Source: Pseudomonadota bacterium
GTDB lineage: Bacteria; Bdellovibrionota; UBA1018; CAIMNF01
Direction of reading: 5' to 3'
DNA length: 64,000 nucleotides
NCBI GenBank assembly: GCA_027486675.1
Contig: JAIXOQ010000005.1
Location: 62,001-126,000 of the forward strand
Shown: positions 43,709-55,658 of the stretch, one piece after another
How positions within the stretch are numbered: position 1 is the first letter of the stretch
Layout: each line of letters starts with the position of its first letter
The notes under the pieces: model-generated
Told to the model about the DNA's origin: nothing
Seen by the model: only the letters and a program-made list of their open reading frames with translations
The model's database searches: none
Translations under genes and position numbers: made by a program

Positions 43709-44788
43709 CTAAATCTTTCTTTTCTTGAATTTCGGAATCACGTACTGAGCACCAACCGATATCTGTGTGGATGGCGCCACAAGGGCTGGAGCATCATCTG
43801 TAAAAGTTCCACGCCCCTCACTCATGGCTCGCACTGAACCTTCCAGTGCAAGAGATCGATTCACGCGAATTAACACACTACATGCGGCCCAGTTTGAGTG
43901 ATCGTAATTCCTGCGCTGAAAAGAACCCGTAGCTTGGATGTTTGGATTTGAGAATCGTAGAAATATTCCCGCGATTGGGTTGTTTCCATAGGGCACGGAG
44001 CTTTCATCGCTCCAGCCACCGGTAGTGGATGTGATGCGGCGCAAGCCATTGCCCCCACTAAATTTGCCGCCATATCCAGCCATTAAGACATTCTGTTTAC
44101 CAACGATTCCACCGATACCCACTTGATATTCAGTCGCAAACTCAAGACCGCCGATATAGCGAAGCTTAGGCGTACGATTTGGAATCATGGTCACACCGTT
44201 TTCCACTGATACCGAAACAGCTTCATGCGTTGCGCGAGTACCGACATGCACCGCATCCACCGACACACCGCCTAAGGCATAAGCGAACACCGCATTCCCC
44301 GCTTTGTAGCCAACTAGGTAATCCAAGTTAGCGTGGGTCATGAGTTTCGTTTCCCCTTGGACAATGAGTGGGCCGCTATAGACCGTGTTTCCGATAACGG
44401 GGTGATCGTCTGGGCTACACGGAATTTCGTCTAAGCTGTACTCCGCACCATACTTTAAGTCGACAATACGCATAGGACCCGACTGATCTGTGATCTCAAG
44501 GCGACTGCGTTTTCTTGAGAGGGTAAAGACTGGGGTAATTCCTACCGGTAGGTCCGTACTGAGAAGGGGACTGGTTGAGGTACCGTTCAACTTCGCTTGA
44601 GCGATCCCTGCGTTCAAATCCTTCACGATCAAATCAAGGGCGTGAGTCGCCTTCGGTTTGTTCCCGCTGATTCGCATGCCAATCCCGTAAAAAAGCTGTT
44701 CGTTCACAAAACCGCGCCCAGGTTTGAATATCGTTCCAGAATCCTGAGCTTGAGCCGAAATCAGAATAAAGAGAGACAGGAATACCAA
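43709..44788 (-). CDS. Exported, probably outer-membrane-associated hypothetical protein
   Basis: A 359-residue protein with a signal peptide (VFLSLFILISAQAQ). The chain is rich in alternating beta patterns and glycine (GGIVGKQNVLMAGYGGKFSGG, IFLRFSNPNIQATGSFQRR), as in beta-barrels or beta-rich surface proteins. No family is recognised. The start is TTG at 44788 after a GGGGGG ribosome site. It is the last gene of the sigma-led minus-strand run, 24 bases after the preceding gene, so it may be part of the same regulon. Confidence 0.65.
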   Translation of the reverse strand: MVFLSLFILISAQAQDSGTIFKPGRGFVNEQLFYGIGMRISGNKPKATHALDLIVKDLNAGIAQAKLNGTSTSPLLSTDLPVGITPVFTLSRKRSRLEITDQSGPMRIVDLKYGAEYSLDEIPCSPDDHPVIGNTVYSGPLIVQGETKLMTHANLDYLVGYKAGNAVFAYALGGVSVDAVHVGTRATHEAVSVSVENGVTMIPNRTPKLRYIGGLEFATEYQVGIGGIVGKQNVLMAGYGGKFSGGNGLRRITSTTGGWSDESSVPYGNNPIAGIFLRFSNPNIQATGSFQRRNYDHSNWAACSVLIRVNRSLALEGSVRAMSEGRGTFTDDAPALVAPSTQISVGAQYVIPKFKKRKI

Positions 44789-44812
44789 GTGAACCCCCCA
44801 GGCCTACAAATT

Positions 44813-45583
44813 TCAAACCGGATCTGACTGCTTCTCTTTTACCGATTCAGGGACGGTGTCGTAAAGAATAACCGCATCCAGAGGCTCCCAGTTCGATCCA
44901 TCTTTTCGCTTGAGGGGGGTGCGGCCCTGAAATCTGCGCAGTAACTTAGTATCTACATCGAGTAGGAGCTGTATGGGTTTAAAGAATAAGCCTAAGACTC
45001 CGGCAGGCTTCATGCTGAGCCCGATCGCTTTCTGGTCTTTAGTGTCGGCTTCCTTGTTGCGATAAAATTTGAATCCCACGCTATCTCCACGCTCAGCCAC
45101 CCCAAATCGAACTTTCACAGTGTCACCGGAGTTCAACTCAGCCCACTTGGCTTTCAAATAAGGCTCTGACAAGGGGCCGGTGATGAAGTTATCACTCATA
45201 TCCTCTGTCCGGGAATCCTGAGCCGGTACCCGCTTCCCATCGACTATTTTGAAGACCTGAAAGGTGACTTTCCCCGCTGATACCTGCATCACATAGGCCT
45301 CAGACGTTTGAAGCTGCTCAAGTTCATCCGATATCAAAGTATAACCCTTAAACGAGCACTTCTCAGTCATCGCCAACTTCCCGGCAGAGTCCTCGATGGT
45401 CGTAGAAACATGTGTAATACCTTGGGCATCGGTAGTCAGAGAAGTCTTTTGAATAAAGAGTGGAGCCCCCCCCTCATCCCCAATGTTGTAAATCTTTGCG
45501 ATGCGCTCCAGGGCAAATGATTCATTTGCTAAAAATCCTGCTCCAAAAACACTCAGGAAAAACAGCACTTTACACTTGGTCAT
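44813..45583 (-). CDS. Exported hypothetical protein in lipid operon
   Basis: The 256-residue protein has a signal peptide (LFFLSVFGAGFLANESFA) and no membrane helix after it. The body is beta-rich and contains TKLLRRFQGRTPLKRKDG near the C-terminus. It overlaps the DUF1295 gene by 4 bases. Operons of this type in other bacteria often hold periplasmic lipid-related proteins such as lipocalins, but I see no lipocalin motif here and assign no function. Confidence 0.65.
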   Translation of the reverse strand: MTKCKVLFFLSVFGAGFLANESFALERIAKIYNIGDEGGAPLFIQKTSLTTDAQGITHVSTTIEDSAGKLAMTEKCSFKGYTLISDELEQLQTSEAYVMQVSAGKVTFQVFKIVDGKRVPAQDSRTEDMSDNFITGPLSEPYLKAKWAELNSGDTVKVRFGVAERGDSVGFKFYRNKEADTKDQKAIGLSMKPAGVLGLFFKPIQLLLDVDTKLLRRFQGRTPLKRKDGSNWEPLDAVILYDTVPESVKEKQSDPV

Positions 45584-46380
45584 TTAGAGCTCCTCACAAA
45601 CCACGGAATGAATGCAGACGTTGTTTTCTGATACTCACGAAATGCTTCGCCCCTCGATTTGAGTGACTGAGCTTCAGCCATAGGTATACCGGTCACCTTG
45701 AGTAGAAGATATAGGATGCTCAAAGGGCAGTACACTGTAGTCCACCCCCAAGGTGAATCAAGCGCCACAATGAAATAGCCCCACCAAATACAACTCTCAA
45801 AGAAGTAGTTTGGATGACGTGAATACCGCCAAAGACCTTCCTGACATACCTTCTTTGCGTTTTCAGGATTTGCCTTAAAACGATTGGCCTGATGATCTGC
45901 TAGTGCCTCACCGAACAAAGAAAGTACTGCAACCGACAATCCTACCCACTCTAAGAGTGAGATCTCAGGACTCGTGTTGAGACTGATCATCAAGAACGGT
46001 ACCGAAAGGAAAGCCACACTCAGGCCCTGGATCAAAAAGAATTCTAAAAATCCTCGCTCTACTTGCGGCGCGTATTTTTCTCGAAGTGCGAGATAACGCC
46101 CGTCTTCTTTCGGGTGATGTGCACGAATTCTTCTACCAAGCATCAGCGCCAATCTAAAACCCCAGGCGGAAACAACGGCTAAAATAAAAGCACGTCGATC
46201 CAATGCTCCGGGCGCCAAGAGAAAGAAGCAAAGAACGGTCAGTGGAAACGATGCTGCCCAAACAGCGTCAACGATGCTGTAGTTCTTAATCTTTATAGCA
46301 AATGCCCAAGTGAGAACCATGATCCCAGAGCAAAAAAACAAAGAAAGAATAAAGAGCTGAATTCCAGTGAAACTACTCAT
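45580..46380 (-). CDS. DUF1295 / steroid 5-alpha-reductase-like membrane protein
   Basis: The 266-residue protein has six or seven helices. The C-terminal motif WRYSRHPNYFFESCIWWGYFIVAL and the following GIPMAEAQSLKSRGEAFREYQ are those of DUF1295, related to steroid reductases and isoprenylcysteine methyltransferases. It may reduce or modify membrane fatty acids. ATG 46380 was chosen; it overlaps the preceding stop by 8 bases, and a longer frame to 46476 runs into that gene. Confidence 0.85.
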   Translation of the reverse strand: MSSFTGIQLFILSLFFCSGIMVLTWAFAIKIKNYSIVDAVWAASFPLTVLCFFLLAPGALDRRAFILAVVSAWGFRLALMLGRRIRAHHPKEDGRYLALREKYAPQVERGFLEFFLIQGLSVAFLSVPFLMISLNTSPEISLLEWVGLSVAVLSLFGEALADHQANRFKANPENAKKVCQEGLWRYSRHPNYFFESCIWWGYFIVALDSPWGWTTVYCPLSILYLLLKVTGIPMAEAQSLKSRGEAFREYQKTTSAFIPWFVRSSK

Positions 46381-46720
46381 TGCGTTTCTCGTTGAAGAGG
46401 ATGCGTTCGACAGAAGCATCTGCTGGAAGTTTAAAGGCGAGCCATAAGACATAAAGTGACATGGCGATATTTCCAAAAAATAATATTACGGGGAGAAGAA
46501 CAAACTTTCGCATCATTGAGTTTTCTCTGTAAAGAACCCAAGCATAAAAGGTCATAAAACCAAGGTAAGCATCAGCAAGGGTAGCTAAGCCCCAAGGCTC
46601 ACGACCAACATGGACAAATCCATCCCAAACACTTTCATAGGTACTGGCCCAAGCAGTCACCCCGATAATTACGGCAAGAATCAAACTAAAATAAATACGC
46701 GCACTTCGAACTGTCATCAT
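46373..46720 (-). CDS. Small DUF1475-like membrane protein
   Basis: A 115-residue protein with three helices. The GREPWGLATLADAYLGFMTFYAWVLYREN pattern resembles DUF1475 or related small membrane proteins found beside lipid-modifying genes. The function is unknown. It overlaps both neighbours. Confidence 0.65.
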   Translation of the reverse strand: MMTVRSARIYFSLILAVIIGVTAWASTYESVWDGFVHVGREPWGLATLADAYLGFMTFYAWVLYRENSMMRKFVLLPVILFFGNIAMSLYVLWLAFKLPADASVERILFNEKRNE

Positions 46721-47871
46721 AAAGAAGCCCTTTCGTTTTCTTGTTTAAATACAAAATCTAAAAATCGATCAATCGCAGAGGTGCTCAGTAACCCACCGGG
46801 CCCATTCAGATTGTAATCAAAGCCATGGGTCGCCCACGGAATGGATACAAGCGCCGATGGAACACCGTACTCTTGTAGACGCGCAAAGAGTCGTTCGCTG
46901 TGCCGAGCCCAGACCAAAGGATCATTTGGGCCGTGAAAGAGTAGCGTCGGCGGCGCATAAGAGGTCACATGATTGAGAGGCGACGCATCCTGATACTGTG
47001 TCGCAGATTTTATGGGTTCGCCACCGAGGTAGTCTCTAATAAGTCCGGGAGACTTTAAAAGATCATCTTCCTTTGCATTACGGTAGGCGAAATTAAGATC
47101 AGATGGAGCATAGAAAGCAATACAACCACGTAAGCCTGCATCACGGGTCGAGCGGAATGCCAGAGACTCAGCAATTTGTCCCCCGGCCGAGCGCCCAAGC
47201 ACTACATACCGGTTTGCATCTAGTCCAAGGGTTGTGGCCTGATTTTTTAAGAATGAAATCGCATCCCGAACATCTTCCAGTGGAGCGGGCCACTTTGCCT
47301 CCGGCGCAAGACGATAACTCACGGAGGCAACCGAAATGCCGCGATCAGCCAAGTGATGATTCAGTTTGGAAAGCTGTCTACGATCCCCACTATTCCACCC
47401 TCCCCCATGCAACACGACCACCCAGGGGTTAGACGTACCCTTTTCAGCATTACCAGGATAGAAATCGAGCTGAAGAGGAATGCCGGCATGAGTCGCGAAA
47501 GTTAGGGTTTTTATATCTACTTCAGCGTCGTGGCGACCGAGAAAGAGAGTTCGGTAGCGAACATCTATTTTGTCTGATGCATTCGTGAGACCAAGGCCAA
47601 TCTTGAACTCTTGATCCCAACGACTGAGTCCAACTACCAATTGAACTAGGGGCAGCAAGAACAGCACCAGGGCCACTGTGGTGGCGACCACCGACCCTCG
47701 CGTCTTGGCTCGTACCAATACAATCCCAGCCAAAAGAGCTAACCAATGGCCATACTCGGTGGCGCCAATTGAAACCTTCCAAAGAAACGAACTCTCGGTG
47801 CGATTAAAATACGTTAGAGAGACGAGCAGTAGAACGAGCGGGAGGAGCCCTACCCTCCAAGACTTGTTCAT
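46717..47871 (-). CDS. Membrane-anchored alpha/beta hydrolase (esterase-like)
   Basis: At 384 residues, the N-terminal 90 residues hold three hydrophobic helices. An alpha/beta hydrolase follows with the oxyanion motif VVLHGGGWNSGD, the nucleophile Ser in VLGRSAGGQIAE, an Asp in FHGPNDPLV and a late His in WATHGFDYNL. The pattern is that of the BD-FAE/hormone-sensitive-lipase type. A phospholipid or acyl-ester substrate fits the operon. It abuts the CFA-like gene with no gap. Confidence 0.8.
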   Translation of the reverse strand: MNKSWRVGLLPLVLLLVSLTYFNRTESSFLWKVSIGATEYGHWLALLAGIVLVRAKTRGSVVATTVALVLFLLPLVQLVVGLSRWDQEFKIGLGLTNASDKIDVRYRTLFLGRHDAEVDIKTLTFATHAGIPLQLDFYPGNAEKGTSNPWVVVLHGGGWNSGDRRQLSKLNHHLADRGISVASVSYRLAPEAKWPAPLEDVRDAISFLKNQATTLGLDANRYVVLGRSAGGQIAESLAFRSTRDAGLRGCIAFYAPSDLNFAYRNAKEDDLLKSPGLIRDYLGGEPIKSATQYQDASPLNHVTSYAPPTLLFHGPNDPLVWARHSERLFARLQEYGVPSALVSIPWATHGFDYNLNGPGGLLSTSAIDRFLDFVFKQENERASL

Positions 47872-48930
47872 CTACCCTTGTCCATGTCTCTTCGTGAAAA
47901 GGTAGTGGGATACACCCCACTCACTCCCATTGCGGTAGTTAAAGAGCTCCGCGCAAGACAAGTAGAAAATTCTCCAGCGCTGAAGCCAGATCTTGGCTTC
48001 GCTGTCGCCATAAACCTTCTTAAATATTGAAAGAATGGATAGGCGATTCTGATCTAAATTTTGTAACCAGGCTTCTGCTGTTCGACCGTAGTGCGTTCCA
48101 TCCCAGGCCCACTGTTTACTTAAGACGAGATCCCTTTGAAAATGTGACAAGAGTTCATGGCTCGGCATTTGGCCTCCGGTAAAGAAATACTTTCCAAGCC
48201 AATTATCCTCGCCATCTACCTCAAAGAGGTAGGAATAGGTCTTATGGGTGAAGATATGAACAAATAATTTTGCATCATCGTTCATCCACTTGGATACGCG
48301 TGCGAATAATTGTTCATAGTTACGAAGGTGCTCAAACATCTCCACACTAACAACGCGATCGAAACGACCGAACTCTGCTTCCAAGCCGGTGACTTGATCG
48401 ATGTTACGGGTCAAGACCGTGATATTTTTTAACCCTCGCGCTGCAGCCTGAGTATCGATGTACTCCCGTTGCGAGGATGAGTTTGAAAGGGCAACGATCT
48501 TGCTGTTTGGATATCGTTTTGCCATGGCAAGGGTCAACGAACCCCAGCCACATCCAAGTTCCAAGATCTTCATACCATCTAGGATTTCGGCCCTTGCCAT
48601 CGTCATTTCAAGCGCAGCGTCCTCAGCTTCATCCAGGGACTGGCATCCTGCCGGCCAGTAGGCGGAACTGTATTTACGATTCTTGCCCAGGCACAAGCCA
48701 AAGAAGTCGGCTGGAACTTCGTAATGCTGCTGATTTGCAGCCTCGGTGTGAACTGCGATGGGGGATGACTTCAAAAGATCGATATAGGCATTGGAAAAGT
48801 TCTGTCTAAGCTCAAGACTCTTTTGGTCCAGACTTTTGAGACGCTCAGAACACAACTTTCTGATCCCAGCACGAATCAAAACATCAGGGACAAAACCACG
48901 CTCCATAGAGTTGATAACACTGCTGATCAT
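47872..48930 (-). CDS. CFA-synthase-like SAM methyltransferase (second paralogue)
   Basis: A 352-residue protein with the N-terminal half of the cyclopropane-synthase family reduced. It has QQHYEVPADFFGLCLG, the SAM motif ILELGCGWGSLTLAMAK and VSVEMFEHLRNYEQL. Homologues beside true Cfa proteins methylate unsaturated acyl chains, for example in the furan fatty acid route of Rhodobacter. Whether this protein makes cyclopropanes, methyl-branched or furan precursors cannot be told. It starts 12 bases after the first CFA gene. Confidence 0.82.
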   Translation of the reverse strand: MISSVINSMERGFVPDVLIRAGIRKLCSERLKSLDQKSLELRQNFSNAYIDLLKSSPIAVHTEAANQQHYEVPADFFGLCLGKNRKYSSAYWPAGCQSLDEAEDAALEMTMARAEILDGMKILELGCGWGSLTLAMAKRYPNSKIVALSNSSSQREYIDTQAAARGLKNITVLTRNIDQVTGLEAEFGRFDRVVSVEMFEHLRNYEQLFARVSKWMNDDAKLFVHIFTHKTYSYLFEVDGEDNWLGKYFFTGGQMPSHELLSHFQRDLVLSKQWAWDGTHYGRTAEAWLQNLDQNRLSILSIFKKVYGDSEAKIWLQRWRIFYLSCAELFNYRNGSEWGVSHYLFTKRHGQG

Positions 48931-48942
48931 ATCGAATTTCCT

Positions 48943-50238
48943 TTATACCTTTCCTAGCAATGGCGCCCTACGGCACCCCGGTTTCGTAAACAGAATCTGA
49001 GAACATCCGATTGCCCTTTCGGCAAATCCACCTTCACAGTACGCGAAGTAGTACTGCCAAAGGCGATAGAGTTCGGCCGGATATCCAAGCTCAGTGATTC
49101 GGCCTTGATTCTCTTTGAGTCGCTCACCCCAGAGTCTCAGCGTCGTGGCATAGTGCGGACCGATCTCTTCCTGGTGAAATACTGAAAGATCTGTCGATTT
49201 CGAAATAGCCCCATGAATGCTTCGAATGGAAGGGATCCCAGATCCTGGGAAAATATATAGCTGGATGAAGTCGACGTTCTTTCGGGCGTATTCGTAGTAT
49301 TCATCCCGAATCGTGATTCCCTGAATCAACATTTGCCCGTTTGGCTTCAGCAGTGAGCTGCACTTATTGAAGTAGGTTTTTAAATTATTCAGGCCTACTG
49401 CCTCAATCATCTCAATAGAAACGAGTTTATCAAACTGACCCTCTAACAACCGGTAGTCCTTCAATAGAATCTTTATCCGGTCAGCTAATCCCTCAGCCTC
49501 TACACGAGCAACGGCATGTGCATACTGCTGCTTAGAAATAGTCGTGGTGGTTACCTTGCATCCGTAGTTCTTTGCAGCGTGAATGGCAAAACCACCCCAG
49601 CCGGTCCCAATTTCCAGGAGGTGATCTGCCGGAGTAAGGTCGAGCTTCCTGCAGATTCTATCGATTTTTTCTATCGACGCCTCCTGAAGGGAGGTGTGTT
49701 CGTCTTGAAAGATCCCGCAACTATACATCCACGTATCGTCTAAAAAGAGTTCGAAGAAATTATTCCCCAGATCGTAGTGGGCCTGAATGTTGGCCTGTGC
49801 TCCACGAATCGTATTTCCATTTAAGCGGTGAGCAAGGCGCTGAATGGGTGCGAGTATTGCTCCAAGCCCCCCGTCTAGGGCTAAAAGAGATTCGCGATTC
49901 GCGACGAAGATTCGAATGAGTTGCGTCAACTGATCGCAGTCCCAGTCTCCGTCGACAAAACTCTCTCCGGTCCCGATCGATCCCCCGAGTGCAATCCTCG
50001 AGTACGCCTGTCTGCGGCGAATATTCACGCGTGCACGGAGGTCCTGAGGTGCGTTTTCACTGCCACAGACATAGACCTTTTGCCCATTTGGACCTTGTTC
50101 CACGAATTCAATCCGACCATTCGGAATCGTGCGCAGCTTATTCAGCAGCATGCCTTGGCAAAATGAATCGAGCACATTACTTCCCAAAAAACTGCGTGAC
50201 GAAATCAGATCAGGGCTAATGAGTTTTTCAGCACTCAT
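48943..50238 (-). CDS. cfa: Cyclopropane-fatty-acyl-phospholipid synthase
   Basis: The 431-residue enzyme has a non-catalytic N-terminal domain and the methyltransferase domain with IQAHYDLGNNFFELFLDDTWMYSCGIF, LLEIGTGWGGFAIHAAK and VSIEMIEAVG. It uses SAM to bridge cis double bonds of membrane phospholipids, which stabilises membranes against acid and oxidative stress. Key family blocks are intact. Its end overlaps the upstream neighbour's arrangement in the tight operon and its ATG lies within the DUF1365 stop. Confidence 0.92.
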   Translation of the reverse strand: MSAEKLISPDLISSRSFLGSNVLDSFCQGMLLNKLRTIPNGRIEFVEQGPNGQKVYVCGSENAPQDLRARVNIRRRQAYSRIALGGSIGTGESFVDGDWDCDQLTQLIRIFVANRESLLALDGGLGAILAPIQRLAHRLNGNTIRGAQANIQAHYDLGNNFFELFLDDTWMYSCGIFQDEHTSLQEASIEKIDRICRKLDLTPADHLLEIGTGWGGFAIHAAKNYGCKVTTTTISKQQYAHAVARVEAEGLADRIKILLKDYRLLEGQFDKLVSIEMIEAVGLNNLKTYFNKCSSLLKPNGQMLIQGITIRDEYYEYARKNVDFIQLYIFPGSGIPSIRSIHGAISKSTDLSVFHQEEIGPHYATTLRLWGERLKENQGRITELGYPAELYRLWQYYFAYCEGGFAERAIGCSQILFTKPGCRRAPLLGKV

Positions 50239-50993
50239 AAATTTTCTCCATGGGATGGGTGTGTGTACACGGGCACGCCTTTTAACTTCAAAAGAAGCGC
50301 CTGAATGTAGATTGCAATAAATGACTTAATTGTGAGTAAAGGAAACGCTAATAAAGAGAGAGGTGTGCTTAGCCATCCGAATTCTCTTCGCTTCAGCGTG
50401 AGCGTCGCATCAAACAGCACAGCTTCTTTTCCTTGATCTCGATTCTCCATATGAATATTGAGCCGTTCTACAGGAGTAGAAAAGTTCCAACGGTAGTCCA
50501 TCGTCATTGGAAAGAAGGGAGAAACATGAAAGTTTTTTTCAAAATCGAACTGATGAGCCGCTAGAACGGCATCTGCCTCTAGAACGTAGGCGTGTCTCTC
50601 TAACCAGGGGGTATTTGTGATCTCTGCAACGATGAACTCGACATGAGAATCAGATTTATCAAAGCAGTAATAAAAACTGACTGGATTAAAACAGAAACCA
50701 AAGTAACTGACCTGCGTTAGAAGTCGAATAGGACCAAGCACTTCTTTGCCAATCCGCTGTCGCACCAATGTTTGCACGCTCTCTCGAATGGATACGGATG
50801 GGTCACCAATATAATTCGATCGTTTAAATCCAATCACCGATGGACCTCGATCTGAGCAAAGGAGCGGAAAACGAAAAATTTTCTGAACTTCATCCAGATC
50901 GATGAAGAAGAGAAGCAAGCTGTAGTTGAAGTTATGCAGCTTCGGAGAAAATCTTCGGTGCCGGATGTTTCCAATGTAAAGCGAGCTCTTCAT
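50235..50993 (-). CDS. DUF1365 protein
   Basis: At 252 residues it matches the DUF1365 family: IRHRRFSPKLHNFNYSLLLFFIDLDEV at the N-terminus, VSYFGFCFNPVSFYYCFD in the middle and FHVSPFFPMTMDYRW later. The family nearly always sits between an FAD amine-oxidase-like gene and a CFA gene, as here, and has no known reaction. The last residues are basic and follow a hydrophobic helix. It overlaps both neighbours by 4 bases. Confidence 0.9.
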   Translation of the reverse strand: MKSSLYIGNIRHRRFSPKLHNFNYSLLLFFIDLDEVQKIFRFPLLCSDRGPSVIGFKRSNYIGDPSVSIRESVQTLVRQRIGKEVLGPIRLLTQVSYFGFCFNPVSFYYCFDKSDSHVEFIVAEITNTPWLERHAYVLEADAVLAAHQFDFEKNFHVSPFFPMTMDYRWNFSTPVERLNIHMENRDQGKEAVLFDATLTLKRREFGWLSTPLSLLAFPLLTIKSFIAIYIQALLLKLKGVPVYTHPSHGENL

Positions 50994-52249
50994 AGCTGTG
51001 CTCCGAAAGTTTCGCAGACACGAAGAGCACTCTTCACCCCGTCTTCATGAAATCCGTATCCCCAGTAAGCGCCGCAGAAGTGTACCCTGTCCTTTCCGCT
51101 GACTTCCGCCCACCGTTTCTGGGCTGAGACCGCTTCTGCCGTGTAAACAGGGTGGTCATAGACAAATCGTGCAAGGACCTGAGTTGGATCAATCCGCTGA
51201 TCCATGTTGAGCGAGACGGCGAAGGTTTCCGGAGCCCGAATCCCTTGCAAAATGTTCATGTTGTAAGTGACCGCAACCAAATTGCCTTCCTGCTTTGGAA
51301 GCCAATAGTTCCATGCAGCCCAGGCTCTTCTTGATTTCGGCAGAACGGTTGAGTCGGTATGCAAAACCGTATTGTTTGGCTGGTAGGAAAAGGCTGAAAG
51401 AACGCTGCGTTCTTGCATGGTGATACTTTCAAGAATTCGCATCGTTTGGTCTGAGTGAGTAGCAAAGACCACGTGATCAAAGTTCAGTGATTGCTGACCG
51501 CTCTCAGAATTTACCGAAAGAACAACTCCCTCTTTCCCTCTGACTACGGAGCGAACCGGAGACTTCAGATGAATCTTCTTAAAGAATCCTTTTGTGAGTG
51601 GTTCGATGTAGGCGCTCGATCCACCTTCAATCACCTTCCAAACCGGGCGTTCATTCACAGAAAGCATCCCGTGATTCTTAAAGAACTGAACAAAATATTG
51701 GATTGGAAAGACTTCCATCTGTCGAGAAGACGAGGACCAAATCGCCGCCCCCATAGGCACGATATAGTTCGATTTAAAAACGTCGCTATACCCTCGAGTC
51801 TGCAGATACTTGCCAAGCGTTACACCAGCAAATGTTTCATCGCCCAAAACCTCAAGTGACTCTTTGTTAAAACGCAGGATCTCTTGGATCATCCGGTGGA
51901 AAGAGATACTGAAAACATTCTTTCGCTGAGCAAAAAGTCCGTTTAGGTCGGTGCCATTGTATTCAATGCCACTTTCCTCACCTTTAACGCTGAAACTCAT
52001 CGAAGTGTCTTTGAATCTGACACCTAACATGCCCATGAGCTTAATAAAATTCGGATAGGTCCAGTCATTGAATACAATAAATCCGGTATCAACCGCATAT
52101 TGACCCGAACGAACATTTACATCCACAGTGTGGGTGTGACCACCGATATAGTCGGCAGCTTCGAACACATGAACTTCATGATTTTTTTTGGACAACACAT
52201 AAGCGGTGGTCAGACCGGATATGCCAGAACCAATAACTGCAATTTTCAT
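50990..52249 (-). CDS. FAD-dependent amine-oxidase-like oxidoreductase of lipid operon
   Basis: A 419-residue flavoprotein with the N-terminal Rossmann motif IAVIGSGISGLTTAYVL and the following HVFEAADYIGGHTHTV; a late FCGAYWGYGFHEDGVKSA closes the flavin site. Proteins of this family sit in ECF-sigma-controlled lipid operons and are candidates for desaturating or oxidising methylated acyl chains. It precedes DUF1365 and two CFA-like genes. The substrate is inferred from this order only. Confidence 0.85.
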   Translation of the reverse strand: MKIAVIGSGISGLTTAYVLSKKNHEVHVFEAADYIGGHTHTVDVNVRSGQYAVDTGFIVFNDWTYPNFIKLMGMLGVRFKDTSMSFSVKGEESGIEYNGTDLNGLFAQRKNVFSISFHRMIQEILRFNKESLEVLGDETFAGVTLGKYLQTRGYSDVFKSNYIVPMGAAIWSSSSRQMEVFPIQYFVQFFKNHGMLSVNERPVWKVIEGGSSAYIEPLTKGFFKKIHLKSPVRSVVRGKEGVVLSVNSESGQQSLNFDHVVFATHSDQTMRILESITMQERSVLSAFSYQPNNTVLHTDSTVLPKSRRAWAAWNYWLPKQEGNLVAVTYNMNILQGIRAPETFAVSLNMDQRIDPTQVLARFVYDHPVYTAEAVSAQKRWAEVSGKDRVHFCGAYWGYGFHEDGVKSALRVCETFGAQL

Positions 52250-52253
52250 AAAT

Positions 52254-52910
52254 TTACGACCACCTCAGAGCGCGCGTGCCAACGACTGCGCCTAGAAGCA
52301 TAAGACCCACGGTAGGTGAAAAGTGCCAAACAATGAGGTGCAAAGGATTGTCATGGGGGCAGACCAAATGCATGAAGAATGCACCGACACAGGCCATAGA
52401 TGCTGCACTCCAAAGACCGGCCCACGCGAGCCGAGTAGGTGCGGCACCGCGAACCACGAAGAACAACCCTACCGACGAAAACACGGCAGAGAATGCGATG
52501 AAAAATCCACATCGGCCGCGAAGTAGGTCGACCTCAAGCGGTAGCTCGCTCGCCAAGGACAAAGAATTCCATTTCCACAGGATACAGCACGCCGCAACAC
52601 CAAGGATGAGTCCCGCAATACGGACCACCTTTTGCGTGAGCGGCCCCGCAAAGGAGGCTTCATAGGCAATCCATCCTGATGCGAGAGATCCAAGAACCCA
52701 AAGAAACGCCTCAGCAAAATAACCAAAAGACAGACTGAGCGGAAGATGTGCGTCTTCAGGCCAATTTTGCGTGATGTAGAGGACAGACAAGCCCGACAGA
52801 ACGAAGAAAAGAAAGAATATTGTCCAAAACTTGAGAGAAAACTGCTTCTGCAAAGATGATGCTTTTGAATCTGTAACGAGGTGATTGATCAAGTCTTGAG
52901 TTTTGTTCAT
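52254..52910 (-). CDS. nrsF: NrsF-type (DUF1109) membrane anti-sigma factor
   Basis: The 218-residue protein has six predicted helices. Two cysteines stand at C134 (RGRCGFF) and C184 (LVCPHDNPLHLIVWH), 50 residues apart, which matches the spacing of the redox/metal-sensing cysteines of Caulobacter NrsF. NrsF holds its ECF sigma factor inactive at the membrane until stress. It overlaps the sigma gene by 4 bases and lies 4 bases before the flavoprotein gene. Confidence 0.85.
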   Translation of the reverse strand: MNKTQDLINHLVTDSKASSLQKQFSLKFWTIFFLFFVLSGLSVLYITQNWPEDAHLPLSLSFGYFAEAFLWVLGSLASGWIAYEASFAGPLTQKVVRIAGLILGVAACCILWKWNSLSLASELPLEVDLLRGRCGFFIAFSAVFSSVGLFFVVRGAAPTRLAWAGLWSAASMACVGAFFMHLVCPHDNPLHLIVWHFSPTVGLMLLGAVVGTRALRWS

Positions 52911-53470
52911 CGAATCCTCAGCTTCTTAAGACTTCGATGAATGGAAACCTTCACAGCGGATACTGTCATTCCCGATTTTTTTGCGATTTCGGCGTACGAA
53001 AGCTCCTCGACCTTTGCAAGTTGAAGGAGTGTTCGTTCTTTCTCATTCAAGCAACGCAGAAGATCATTCATATTCGACTCCTCAGCACGAGCTGGCTCAG
53101 CTGGAATCAAATGATCAAACTCTGGTACCCACTCAACAGTTGCGATCCGTCGAGATTTGGATCGAAGAAGGTCAAAGAAGCGATACCGAGCGATCGCATG
53201 AATCCACTGAATGAGCGGAAACTCTGAACGATAGAATCCTCTTTTGCGATGAATCGAAAACAGAACATCCTGAATCAGATCTTCCACGTCGACTTCGGAT
53301 CGCTGGCGTACACTCATGATGCTCACTAAGAATGACCTCAAAATTTCCGCTACTTTTTCTAAAAAGAGCCGATAAGAATCCTCATCCCCTGCTATTCCAT
53401 CTAGAAACAGCCGGCGGAGGATCTGATCGAGTTCTTCGTTGACCGCAAAACTGCGATTCTGTTGCTTCAT
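52907..53470 (-). CDS. sigF: ECF sigma factor (SigF-like)
   Basis: A 187-residue sigma70-family protein with region 2 (VEDLIQDVLFSIHRKRGFYRSEFPLIQWIHAIARYRFFDLLR) and region 4 (LQLAKVEELSYAEIAKKSGMTVSAVKVSIHRSLKKL). It directs RNA polymerase to the lipid operon when NrsF lets go. No ribosome binding site precedes the ATG, and the likely promoter ends 5 bases upstream. The gene follows a WbaP-like gene by 55 bases. Confidence 0.9.
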   Translation of the reverse strand: MKQQNRSFAVNEELDQILRRLFLDGIAGDEDSYRLFLEKVAEILRSFLVSIMSVRQRSEVDVEDLIQDVLFSIHRKRGFYRSEFPLIQWIHAIARYRFFDLLRSKSRRIATVEWVPEFDHLIPAEPARAEESNMNDLLRCLNEKERTLLQLAKVEELSYAEIAKKSGMTVSAVKVSIHRSLKKLRIR

Positions 53471-53475
53471 AGGTC

Positions 53476-53503
53476 AATACGCCTAGCGTTGTAGAAAGGT
53501 TAC
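53476..53503 (-). promoter_or_regulatory. ECF-type promoter GTAACC-N16-CGTATT
   Basis: On the minus strand GTAACC (53498-53503) and CGTATT (53476-53481) are separated by 16 bases. The Caulobacter SigF consensus is GTAACC-N16-CGAA, so this is close. Five bases then lead into the ATG at 53470. The sigma factor probably drives its own operon, and the message would have almost no leader. Confidence 0.7.
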
Positions 53504-53525
53504 AAAGAAGAGCAATAAATTGAAT

Positions 53526-54983
53526 CTACACCGCTCCAATCCCACGGATAACGGAAAGAACCGTCTTGACGAGAATAGCCACATCGAAAAGCGTGGAACG
53601 GTTATTGAGGTAGAAGAGGTCATACTCAATGTTTGCGTGAATCGGCTCACCCCGTGCGGCACTGATCTGCCAAACACCCGTAATGCCAGGCTTCGCCTCA
53701 AGCCGCTGTCTCTGCAGCGGTGTGTAGGTCTGAACAATAAAAGGCATCTCAGGCCTTGGACCCACCAGGCTCATTTCTCCACGAAAAACATTAATCAGCT
53801 GTGGGAGTTCGTCTAAACTTGTTCTTCGTAGCCACCGCCCCAAACTAGTTATTCTCGGATCCGCAGCCGAGTCCGGGGTTGTAGCGTATTTGGGCGCATC
53901 TAAGAACATACTTCTAAATTTCAGCAATTCAAAAGTGCGGCCTCCGAGCCCTATGCGTGTTTGCCTAAAAATTGCTGGGCCAGCTGAATTGAGTTTGATG
54001 GCCAAGGAGAGCCCAAGAAAAAGTGGACAGAAAAGAATTAAAAGAACTGAAGAACAGAAGAGATCGATTGTCCTTTTGATAAAGTTATACAGAAATCCAA
54101 TCTGATGATCCCGGCGCTTCAGAATCGGGATCCCACCAATCTCGAAAAGCTCGATGTTTTGAACAAACTTTTCGTACACGTTGGGCACAATACAATATTC
54201 CAAACCGGCGGCGATACATTGATCTACTAACTGTTGGTTCCGCAGAAAGGTGGCAGAGGGTAATGCTATAAAAACTGCCTCAACGCCTAACTCCTTTAGT
54301 TTTGGGATCCAATCCTCACCACCTAGTATGGGAGCAATTTCATGAACTTTTTGCCCCGGCCATCGCAAACTTGTCCCATACCTTGAAACATCATCATCAA
54401 GAAAACCAACGGGAAGCAGTCCTAATGTCGGGCTTTGATACATTCTCTTCACCAAATGCTGACCGATCTCTCCAGCGCCAAAGATAAGCACCTTTTTGTG
54501 CGACCACCCTTTCCGGTGAAACAGTACATGCATCTGTTGGAAGAAGAATCGCTCTACATACAAAACAAAGGGGGTTAGGACAATGGCGATAGTGATGGAT
54601 ACCCGAGAGAGATAAAGAGACCGAAAATAGAATGCGAGCCCAAGCAGAATGGCTGCTCCATAGATCCCCGTTCGAAAAATGCCCCTCAACTCCTTAATGT
54701 TCAGAAGACCAATCTCCCGTCGATACATTTGCGTTTGCGCCAGAACTAAAACATAGAGCACAGCAACTGCGGCGGAGAATGAGGCGTACTCAGGCAGAGT
54801 CAAAGGTGACGATCGCTTGAGCACGTAAAGGTAAAAGAACTGCGCAGATAAGAATGAAAGAACAACTGCGCAAAAATCCGTAAAGACTTGAAATGCCGTA
54901 ATTAACCGACCCCAGAAGATGCGGCTTAGGATGACATTTTTTTGGTTGATCTTTGCGCTTGAAATAACGTGGGAGCCGCTCAT
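53526..54983 (-). CDS. Undecaprenyl-phosphate sugar phosphotransferase (WbaP/WcaJ-type)
   Basis: The protein of about 485 residues has four or five N-terminal helices, a CoA-binding-like domain (LIFGAGEIGQHLVKRM), and a C-terminal bacterial sugar transferase domain. That domain carries KRTIDLFCSSVLLILFCPLF, KFRSMF, RRTSLDELPQLINVFRGEMSLVGPRPE and KPGITGVWQ. It moves a sugar-1-phosphate to undecaprenyl phosphate and so starts glycan repeat synthesis. The start at 54983 was chosen as the frame to 55106 runs into the divergent gene. The main glycan locus lies 22 kb away. Confidence 0.88.
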   Translation of the reverse strand: MSGSHVISSAKINQKNVILSRIFWGRLITAFQVFTDFCAVVLSFLSAQFFYLYVLKRSSPLTLPEYASFSAAVAVLYVLVLAQTQMYRREIGLLNIKELRGIFRTGIYGAAILLGLAFYFRSLYLSRVSITIAIVLTPFVLYVERFFFQQMHVLFHRKGWSHKKVLIFGAGEIGQHLVKRMYQSPTLGLLPVGFLDDDVSRYGTSLRWPGQKVHEIAPILGGEDWIPKLKELGVEAVFIALPSATFLRNQQLVDQCIAAGLEYCIVPNVYEKFVQNIELFEIGGIPILKRRDHQIGFLYNFIKRTIDLFCSSVLLILFCPLFLGLSLAIKLNSAGPAIFRQTRIGLGGRTFELLKFRSMFLDAPKYATTPDSAADPRITSLGRWLRRTSLDELPQLINVFRGEMSLVGPRPEMPFIVQTYTPLQRQRLEAKPGITGVWQISAARGEPIHANIEYDLFYLNNRSTLFDVAILVKTVLSVIRGIGAV

Positions 54984-55052
54984 GTAGGGCTCTTGATACC
55001 GCACATCACCTAAAGTTGTCGACGACTCGCTTTTTGGTCCATTCTTGCGTTG

Positions 55053-55658
55053 ATGTTGGAAGTGATTTTGTATGGGCCGCTGATACCTCCTTTGAGCAAA
55101 GAGCAACTCCAGTCTCGCCTTCCTTCTCCGGCATTAAGGGTTGCTGTCGATGGAGGCTCTCATGCGCCAGTCGAGTTCGACCTTTGGTGCGGCGATGGTG
55201 ACTCCGGGCAACCGCCGCGCGGCGTTCCTTATGTTCAAAAAGAGACCCAAGATGAAACGGACTTATGTTTTGCCTTGCGGCATCTGAAGCCCAACTCTTG
55301 GACTCACCTTCATCTCGTGGGGTTTTTAGGTGGGCGAAAAGATCACGAACTTTCGGTCTTAGGTGAACTCCACGCTGCCTTACGAAAGGAAACACAAAAA
55401 ACTGCAATGCTCTACAACCAAAGGCTTGAGATTGATCTTCGGGTGTTGAGCCCAGGGTCTTATTCACTCAAGTTGAATGGGACATTTTCGGTCCTCTCTT
55501 TAGAGGAAACAAGAGTGAGTCTTTTGGGGGATTGTGAATATCAGACGGATGAGGTGACTCTTTTACCCCTCAGTGGGCGCGGCATTTCGAACTTTGCGAC
55601 TGGCAGAGTACAAATCACATGCAGTCGTCCCATTTTTGTTTTTGAGATCCAAGGATGA
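55053..55658 (+). CDS. Thiamine pyrophosphokinase-like protein
   Basis: At about 201 residues it fits the ThiN family. Visible blocks are VAVDGGSHAP, WCGDGDSGQ (the GDxDS motif), ETDLCFAL and VGFLGGRKDHELSVLGEL. It would convert thiamine to thiamine diphosphate with ATP. The C-terminal binding domain looks short and divergent. It overlaps a sodium:solute symporter gene by 4 bases, so the pair may couple uptake of thiamine or a precursor with its activation. No TPP riboswitch was seen upstream. Confidence 0.75.
   Translation: MLEVILYGPLIPPLSKEQLQSRLPSPALRVAVDGGSHAPVEFDLWCGDGDSGQPPRGVPYVQKETQDETDLCFALRHLKPNSWTHLHLVGFLGGRKDHELSVLGELHAALRKETQKTAMLYNQRLEIDLRVLSPGSYSLKLNGTFSVLSLEETRVSLLGDCEYQTDEVTLLPLSGRGISNFATGRVQITCSRPIFVFEIQG

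Follow-up and report, generated by a model that had tools for sequence, protein, structure and literature searches.

A predicted leaderless, self-activated operon of an ECF16/SigF-like sigma factor in Bdellovibrionota

Introduction

The closest described systems to the locus studied here are ECF16 pairs of a sigma factor and its anti-sigma factor. In Caulobacter crescentus, the ECF sigma factor SigF is followed by NrsF, which carries two key cysteines, and the promoter is of the GTAACC-N16 type (PMC3511200). EcfF-OsrA of Bradyrhizobium japonicum and BcrS-AbcS of Brucella are ECF16 pairs with mapped RNA starts (PMC3420878, PMC8315932). The published SigF/ECF16 promoter reads tGTAACc-N16-CGAA, with CGAA as the -10 element (PMC3511200, PMC3420878, PMC8315932), and the ECF16 anti-sigma factor has six transmembrane regions (PMC8315932). 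BcrS was shown to autoregulate its operon (PMC8315932), and the same has been suggested for EcfF (PMC3420878); sigF of Caulobacter shows no strong autoregulation under metal stress (PMC3511200). The RNA start of ecfF was mapped 6 bp after the -10 element, at a position that overlaps the ATG as first annotated, and the start codon was re-assigned further downstream (PMC3420878).

Leaderless mRNAs are well known (PMC3616915, PMC4842269, PMC7563307). A TA-like signal approximately 12 bp upstream is taken as a mark of leaderless genes (PMC3160421), and GTG is reported to be an inefficient start codon on leaderless mRNA (PMC3616915). An autoregulated leaderless ECF mRNA has already been reported for Mycobacterium tuberculosis sigE, where the message from P2 is made by the SigE polymerase (PMC10027907); the leaderless sigE promoter is named p1 elsewhere (PMC4921905). 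In the open-licence literature, searched by titles, we found nothing on leaderless genes in Bdellovibrio or its phylum, on leaderlessness in ECF16, or on leaderless NrsF-linked sigma genes.

A third relevant system is RpoE-ChrR of Rhodobacter sphaeroides. There, the SAM-dependent fatty-acyl methylase UfaM, UfaD and the DUF1365 protein UfaO produce furan fatty acids, which build up further in a strain that lacks the anti-sigma factor ChrR (PMC7380195).

Here we describe a sigma factor operon in a 64,000-nucleotide stretch of a Bdellovibrionota genome (called the window here). An earlier note on this DNA had proposed that the sigma factor gene is preceded by its own promoter and yields a leaderless message. 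We consider it likely that an ECF16/SigF-like sigma factor activates its own operon from this promoter and that the resulting mRNA is leaderless, with a leader of 0 to about 4 nt.

Results

The site lies on the minus strand at positions 53503–53468 and, read directly as the reverse complement of the window, runs GTAACC-TTTCTACAACGCTAGG-CGTATT-GACCT-ATG. The -35 element GTAACC (53498–53503, minus strand), which is also present in relatives, is separated by the 16-nt spacer TTTCTACAACGCTAGG (53482–53497, minus strand) from the -10 element CGTATT (53476–53481, minus strand). Five bases, GACCT, follow before the ATG (53468–53470, minus strand), whose A at 53470 is the predicted transcription start. 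The spacer and the five-base distance are therefore as the earlier note had given them. Its description of the pattern as SigF-type holds exactly for the -35 element and the spacer; the -10 element is CGTA here and CGAA in the published promoter.

The codons in frame ahead of the ATG are GCG-TAT-TGA-CCT. The TGA stop two codons upstream (53474–53476, minus strand) excludes any start further upstream, and the next in-frame ATG, GTG or TTG of the sigma ORF is codon 44, which lies beyond the invariant residues L18, Y33 and L37 in an alignment of nine sequences. The ATG is thus the only plausible start. Since the start codon is fixed by the sequence, an RNA from the GTAACC/CGTATT promoter would carry a few leader bases at most. 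No Shine–Dalgarno 4-mer could be seen by eye in the 16 bases before the ATG, which bears out the claimed lack of a ribosome site. This absence alone is weak evidence for a leaderless gene, because a Shine–Dalgarno sequence precedes the first start in just 23 of 55 window genes (with crudely assigned starts).

The assembly searched comprises 2,702,274 bases in 33 contigs and is 95.3% complete. The pattern GTAACC-N15-17-CGTATT matched once, compared with no match for the reversed-pattern control. When one mismatch was allowed at spacer 16, there were seven matches in the assembly and seven in the control, and TGTAACY-N16-CGWA gave three and two, respectively. A genome-wide motif search, proposed earlier as a check, thus confirms the exact site as unique, but with loosened motifs the matches did not clearly outnumber those of the reversed controls. 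As one-mismatch matches equal the control, the site is distinguished only by its exactness and its location, and the motif gives no ground for claiming a wider regulon; within its own genome, the loosened searches supported no second target of the sigma factor. Neither of the two additional TGTAACY-N16-CGWA sites is put forward as a target: one (L102) falls within an ORF of 271 codons that runs on the opposite strand, and the other (L100) also lies inside an ORF, which we take to be SSB-like. The equality of one-mismatch matches and control would also be expected if GTAACC/CGTATT were a chance resemblance and the sigma gene were transcribed only from upstream. We regard this as very improbable: the exact match is unique, and its position is one that holds the motif in 25 of the phylum's 45 sigma loci (see below).

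The sigma ORF (52907–53470, minus strand, 187 aa) encodes an ECF sigma factor that scores over the cut-offs of PF08281, PF04545 and PF04542. It has sigma-70 regions 2 and 4 only, and no further Pfam match was found up to E 0.01. The next gene (52254–52910, minus strand, 218 aa), whose ATG overlaps the sigma stop codon (ATGA), encodes an NrsF-family anti-sigma factor (PF06532, 68.5 bits against a cut-off of 26.8), and we therefore assign the two genes to an ECF16/SigF-NrsF-like pair. The NCBI equivalog model for NrsF (NF042994) gave 21.8 bits against a cut-off of 300; the protein is thus NrsF-family and not a strict NrsF equivalog. Both signature cysteines of NrsF are conserved throughout the 16 correctly framed alignment rows, the window protein among them; L073 (mis-framed) and L179 (no ORF) fall outside this count.

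Behind the pair, seven further genes follow on the minus strand. The first (50990–52249) encodes an FAD-dependent amine-oxidase-type protein (PF01593) in the position of UfaD, an equivalence that we infer from its location next to the DUF1365 gene alone, with RPA2571–2569 of R. palustris as the reference order (PMC7380195). A UfaO-like DUF1365 protein (50235–50993; PF07103, E 5.9e-72) is followed by a UfaM-like methyltransferase of the CMAS/cyclopropane-synthase type (48943–50238; PF02353, E 2.3e-85), a second CMAS-type methyltransferase (47872–48930; PF02353, E 5.7e-42) and an alpha/beta-hydrolase of the esterase/lipase type (46717–47871; PF20434, PF07859). The last two are a DUF1475 protein (46373–46720; PF07343, 27.0 bits against a cut-off of 22.3) and a DUF1295 membrane protein (45580–46476; PF06966, E 4.3e-66), the latter given as the listed ORF, with a true start probably further in. 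The operon therefore holds PF01593, PF07103 and PF02353, the UfaD-, UfaO- and UfaM-type domains, in that order, and by domain and order it resembles furan-fatty-acid genes. Two more minus-strand ORFs lie behind it (43709–45583), with no Pfam match up to E 0.1; the first (44813–45583) has a relative of 30% identity in L067.

Among the loci searched, six (the window, L065, L067, L070, L073 and L078) hold the block of sigma, nrsF, amine oxidase, DUF1365, CFA, CMAS, DUF1475 and DUF1295 genes, and all six copies have a GTAACC-N16-CGTA promoter. Measured from the -10 element, the first in-frame ATG or GTG lies at gap 5 in the window and L078, at gap 6 in L070, at gap 20 in L067 and at gap 35 in L073; in L065, no such start was found up to gap 35. 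The leaderless-type layout is thus present in three of six copies (the window, L078 and L070).

Upstream of the sigma gene is a gene for a WbaP/WcaJ-type sugar-phosphate transferase (53526–55106, minus strand; TIGR03025 over cut-off). The promoter could be real and autoregulated while sigma protein is made mainly from longer RNAs that read through from this gene, with the leaderless RNA as a minor species. The WbaP-like gene shares the strand of the sigma gene and ends 55 nt before the ATG, no terminator-like site was found between the two genes, and the basal level of sigma factor needs some source. Against this, the sigma ATG has no Shine–Dalgarno sequence to serve a long RNA, and across the loci examined the upstream neighbor varies, while the promoter persists in each of the six copies of the operon. 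We judge such read-through as the main source to be unlikely. A search for sigma-70-like promoters in 53300–55200 found none (shuffled sequences gave 2.1). The earlier note had named an RNA start solely within the WbaP-like gene as the finding that would speak against its proposal. Such a start is improbable, because the WbaP-like gene is seldom there (in the stretches searched, L097 was the single other NrsF locus to have it, and no sigma gene was found there) and the promoter is preserved in all six operon copies that were found.

To place the layout in its phylum, we used a PF06532 search of 368 genomes of Bdellovibrionota, which gave 46 places in 43 genomes, with four places under the Pfam cut-off. 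All 46 (L054–L099) were examined, and a sigma ORF was present in 45, the exception being L097. In L096 and L098, the sigma ORF is not in tandem with the NrsF match; both were kept among the 45 as misses. The strict motif, GTAAC-N15-17-CG[AT]A within 130 nt upstream of sigma, was present in 25 of the 45 loci (shuffled mean 0.09) and absent from 20. Taken with the NrsF-family partner and the published ECF16 autoregulation, this recurrence argues for the self-activation that the earlier note had predicted.

An in-frame ATG or GTG stands at gap 5 in eight of these loci (L056, L058, L059, L063, L066, L078, L088 and the window) and at gap 6 in three (L068, L070 and L072). In L057, an ATG is at gap 1; in this locus, the same gene as L012, an internal stop codon interrupts the NrsF-linked sigma gene. 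Gaps of 11–35 occur in L055, L062, L067, L073, L074, L075, L076 and L082, and no ATG or GTG was found at gaps 0–35 in L060, L061, L065, L069 and L079; in L060 and L061, an in-frame ATG lies inside the -10 element itself. Allowing CGCA in the -10 element adds L054 and L064 (L064 with a GTG at gap 5) and brings the leaderless type to 12 of 27 loci, of which four start with GTG (L064, L068, L072 and L078). At gap 5, eight of 13 in-frame codons are ATG or GTG, compared with 11 of 224 at the other gaps from 0 to 29, three of these 11 being at gap 6; the binomial p of 3.5e-8 is a guide only, as start codons are not randomly placed. Among 16 loci with a countable start, none of the ten with gaps of 2–8 has a Shine–Dalgarno 4-mer inside the predicted RNA, and four of the five with gaps of 9–22 have a Shine–Dalgarno sequence. 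As this count runs only as far as the sigma domain's edge, some starts are left out, including those of L070, L078 and L062; the gaps given above come from a separate count.

For loci elsewhere, a scan of genome contigs was used, and the best 80 of 173 relatives were taken, mostly alpha- or beta-proteobacterial by their titles; five duplicates of phylum loci (L103, L104, L116, L150 and L159) were dropped, leaving 75. The strict motif is present in 62 of these 75, drawn from the best 80 of 173 relatives (shuffled mean 0.155). Among the 62, one has an ATG or GTG at gap 5 and one at gap 6, so that a gap of 5–6 is seen in 2 of 62 motif-bearing loci elsewhere against 11 of 25 in the phylum (for gap 5, Fisher p 1.3e-4). 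The gap-5 locus elsewhere (L105) has a second ATG at gap 14. The predicted leaderless layout is therefore recurrent within this phylum and rare in the proteobacterial relatives examined. The commonest gap elsewhere is 15 (17 of the 62), which supports the published re-annotation of ecfF (PMC3420878). We accordingly rejected B. japonicum ecfF as a leaderless precedent.

The distance from the -10 element to the RNA start was calibrated with the pattern TAnnnT on 268 ATG or GTG ORFs of at least 200 aa from L054–L098, using uncurated first ATG/GTG starts; the 41 genes of the window alone were too small a sample. The distance between the end of TAnnnT and the start codon is 6 nt in 18 of the 268, and the other distances from 0 to 39 have 0–8 each, except for 14 at distance 29. 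This suggests that leaderless genes are a minor class in the loci of this phylum, and the rate of 11 in 25 for motif-bearing sigma loci exceeds the general rate of 18 in 268. Because the TAnnnT peak is at 6, a gap of 5–6 nt fits the distance from -10 to RNA start in the phylum. The recurrence of this gap and the peak at the same distance lend comparative support to the leaderlessness foreseen in the earlier note. Within this preferred reading, RNA might start a few bases early and carry a leader of 1–4 nt, which would make the message near-leaderless. Short leaders do occur in the SigF family, as the RNA of the SigF target CC2907 starts at -7 of its start codon (PMC3511200). The recurrence of gaps 5–6 and their match to the TAnnnT peak weigh against this sub-case, which we consider the less probable form.

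The sigma tree has 64 rows: 44 of the 45 phylum loci (L096 was omitted) and 20 hand-picked from the 75 loci elsewhere. The 12 leaderless rows require 11 changes on this tree, at least eight of them forced by well-supported branches. Shuffled labels need 11.3 changes on average, and 246 of 500 shuffles do as well. With the label scattered in this way, the leaderless layout is ruled out as a strictly conserved trait, and on the tree it is often gained and lost. Frequent gain and loss speaks against strict conservation, and repeated return to the same spacing speaks for function; the same data fit frequent change and function, and cannot separate the two.

DUF1365 is present in 95 of the 368 genomes; in six of them (G000, G011, G029, G030, G035 and G269), an NrsF match lies approximately 1.4 kb away or closer. 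A second type of pair was seen near such genes. The ChrR model TIGR02451 matched near full length in five genomes, over the curated cut-off in G318, G283 and G291 and under it in G128 and G096; other matches were partial. In four of these five (G096, G128, G283 and G318), DUF1365 lies within approximately 4.4 kb of chrR and on the opposite strand, and hence beside the ChrR-type pair and not behind it. DUF1365/amine-oxidase lipid genes are accordingly found with two pairs: behind the NrsF-type pair in the window (45580–53470), L065, L067, L070, L073 and L078, and beside the ChrR-type pair in L183 (G318), L184 (G283), L186 (G128) and L187 (G096). No CFA match was found within the stretch of L184.

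All five ChrR-type sigma loci carry TGA[TA]C[CT]-N16-CGTAT[TA], and four of them, with L185 as the exception, have TGATC[CT]-N16-CGTAT[TA] together with an in-frame ATG at gap 6–7. The -10 CGTA of the six NrsF-type operon copies (the window, L065, L067, L070, L073 and L078) resembles the CGTAT[TA] of L183, L184, L186 and L187; the -35 element differs between the pairs, being GTAACC in the NrsF type and TGATC[CT] in the ChrR type. In L184, L186 and L187, the in-frame ATG stands 7 nt after the -10 element, and a second in-frame start led by a Shine–Dalgarno sequence follows 27–31 codons on. This arrangement suggests that these three sigma factors may have an extended and a short form.

Discussion

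The activity of the promoter, the exact RNA start, the signal and the products of the operon's enzymes are matters that we infer, and they would combine as follows. Oxidative or membrane stress would be sensed via the cysteines of the NrsF-like anti-sigma factor, and sigma factor would be released. The freed sigma factor would bind its own GTAACC/CGTATT promoter, the RNA would begin on the A of the sigma ATG or right beside it, and ribosomes would start on the 5'-terminal AUG with no need for a Shine–Dalgarno sequence. Translational coupling across the ATGA overlap would yield NrsF, which would close the loop, and the rest of the operon would supply furan-fatty-acid-type enzymes that alter the membrane lipids. 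Counted against leaderless self-activation are the CGTA form of the -10 element, the lack of a supported second target, the instability of the layout, the loci with an ATG at gap 1 or within the -10 element (L057, L060 and L061), the GTG starts of four of the 12 leaderless-type loci, the 20 of 45 loci without the motif and the weak autoregulation of Caulobacter sigF under metal stress.

Such an arrangement would tie the transcription start of a regulator to its translation start. A leaderless mRNA should escape leader-based control, and sigma factor would be translated chiefly from the primary transcript that it initiates itself. A dozen relatives with this spacing offer a testable set of candidate leaderless stress switches, and similar lipid genes are placed beside two different sigma/anti-sigma pairs. 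A broader proposal, which we put forward tentatively and with more doubt than conviction, is that self-activating ECF sigma genes of Bdellovibrionota repeatedly converged on promoters that fire precisely at the start codon, in both NrsF-type and ChrR-type pairs beside the same furan-fatty-acid-type genes. Sigma factor might then be translated well only from sigma-initiated RNA, which would make for a tight feedback switch able to operate under impaired normal initiation, and in the ChrR type the leaderless start may add an N-terminal extension (27–31 codons, in three loci) to the protein led by a Shine–Dalgarno sequence.

The locus departs from each of the described systems. Compared with Caulobacter SigF-NrsF, it has CGTA and not CGAA in the -10 element, its promoter abuts the ATG, lipid-modifying genes are part of the operon, and its anti-sigma factor misses the NrsF equivalog cut-off. 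In contrast to ecfF, the window sigma gene has no downstream start of the kind to which that gene was re-annotated, the next being codon 44. M. tuberculosis sigE belongs to a different phylum and has additional promoters. In R. sphaeroides, the anti-sigma factor is ChrR, whereas an NrsF-type pair heads the operon here; unlike in the window operon, ufaM (RSP2144) is located apart from ufaD and ufaO (RSP1091/1090).
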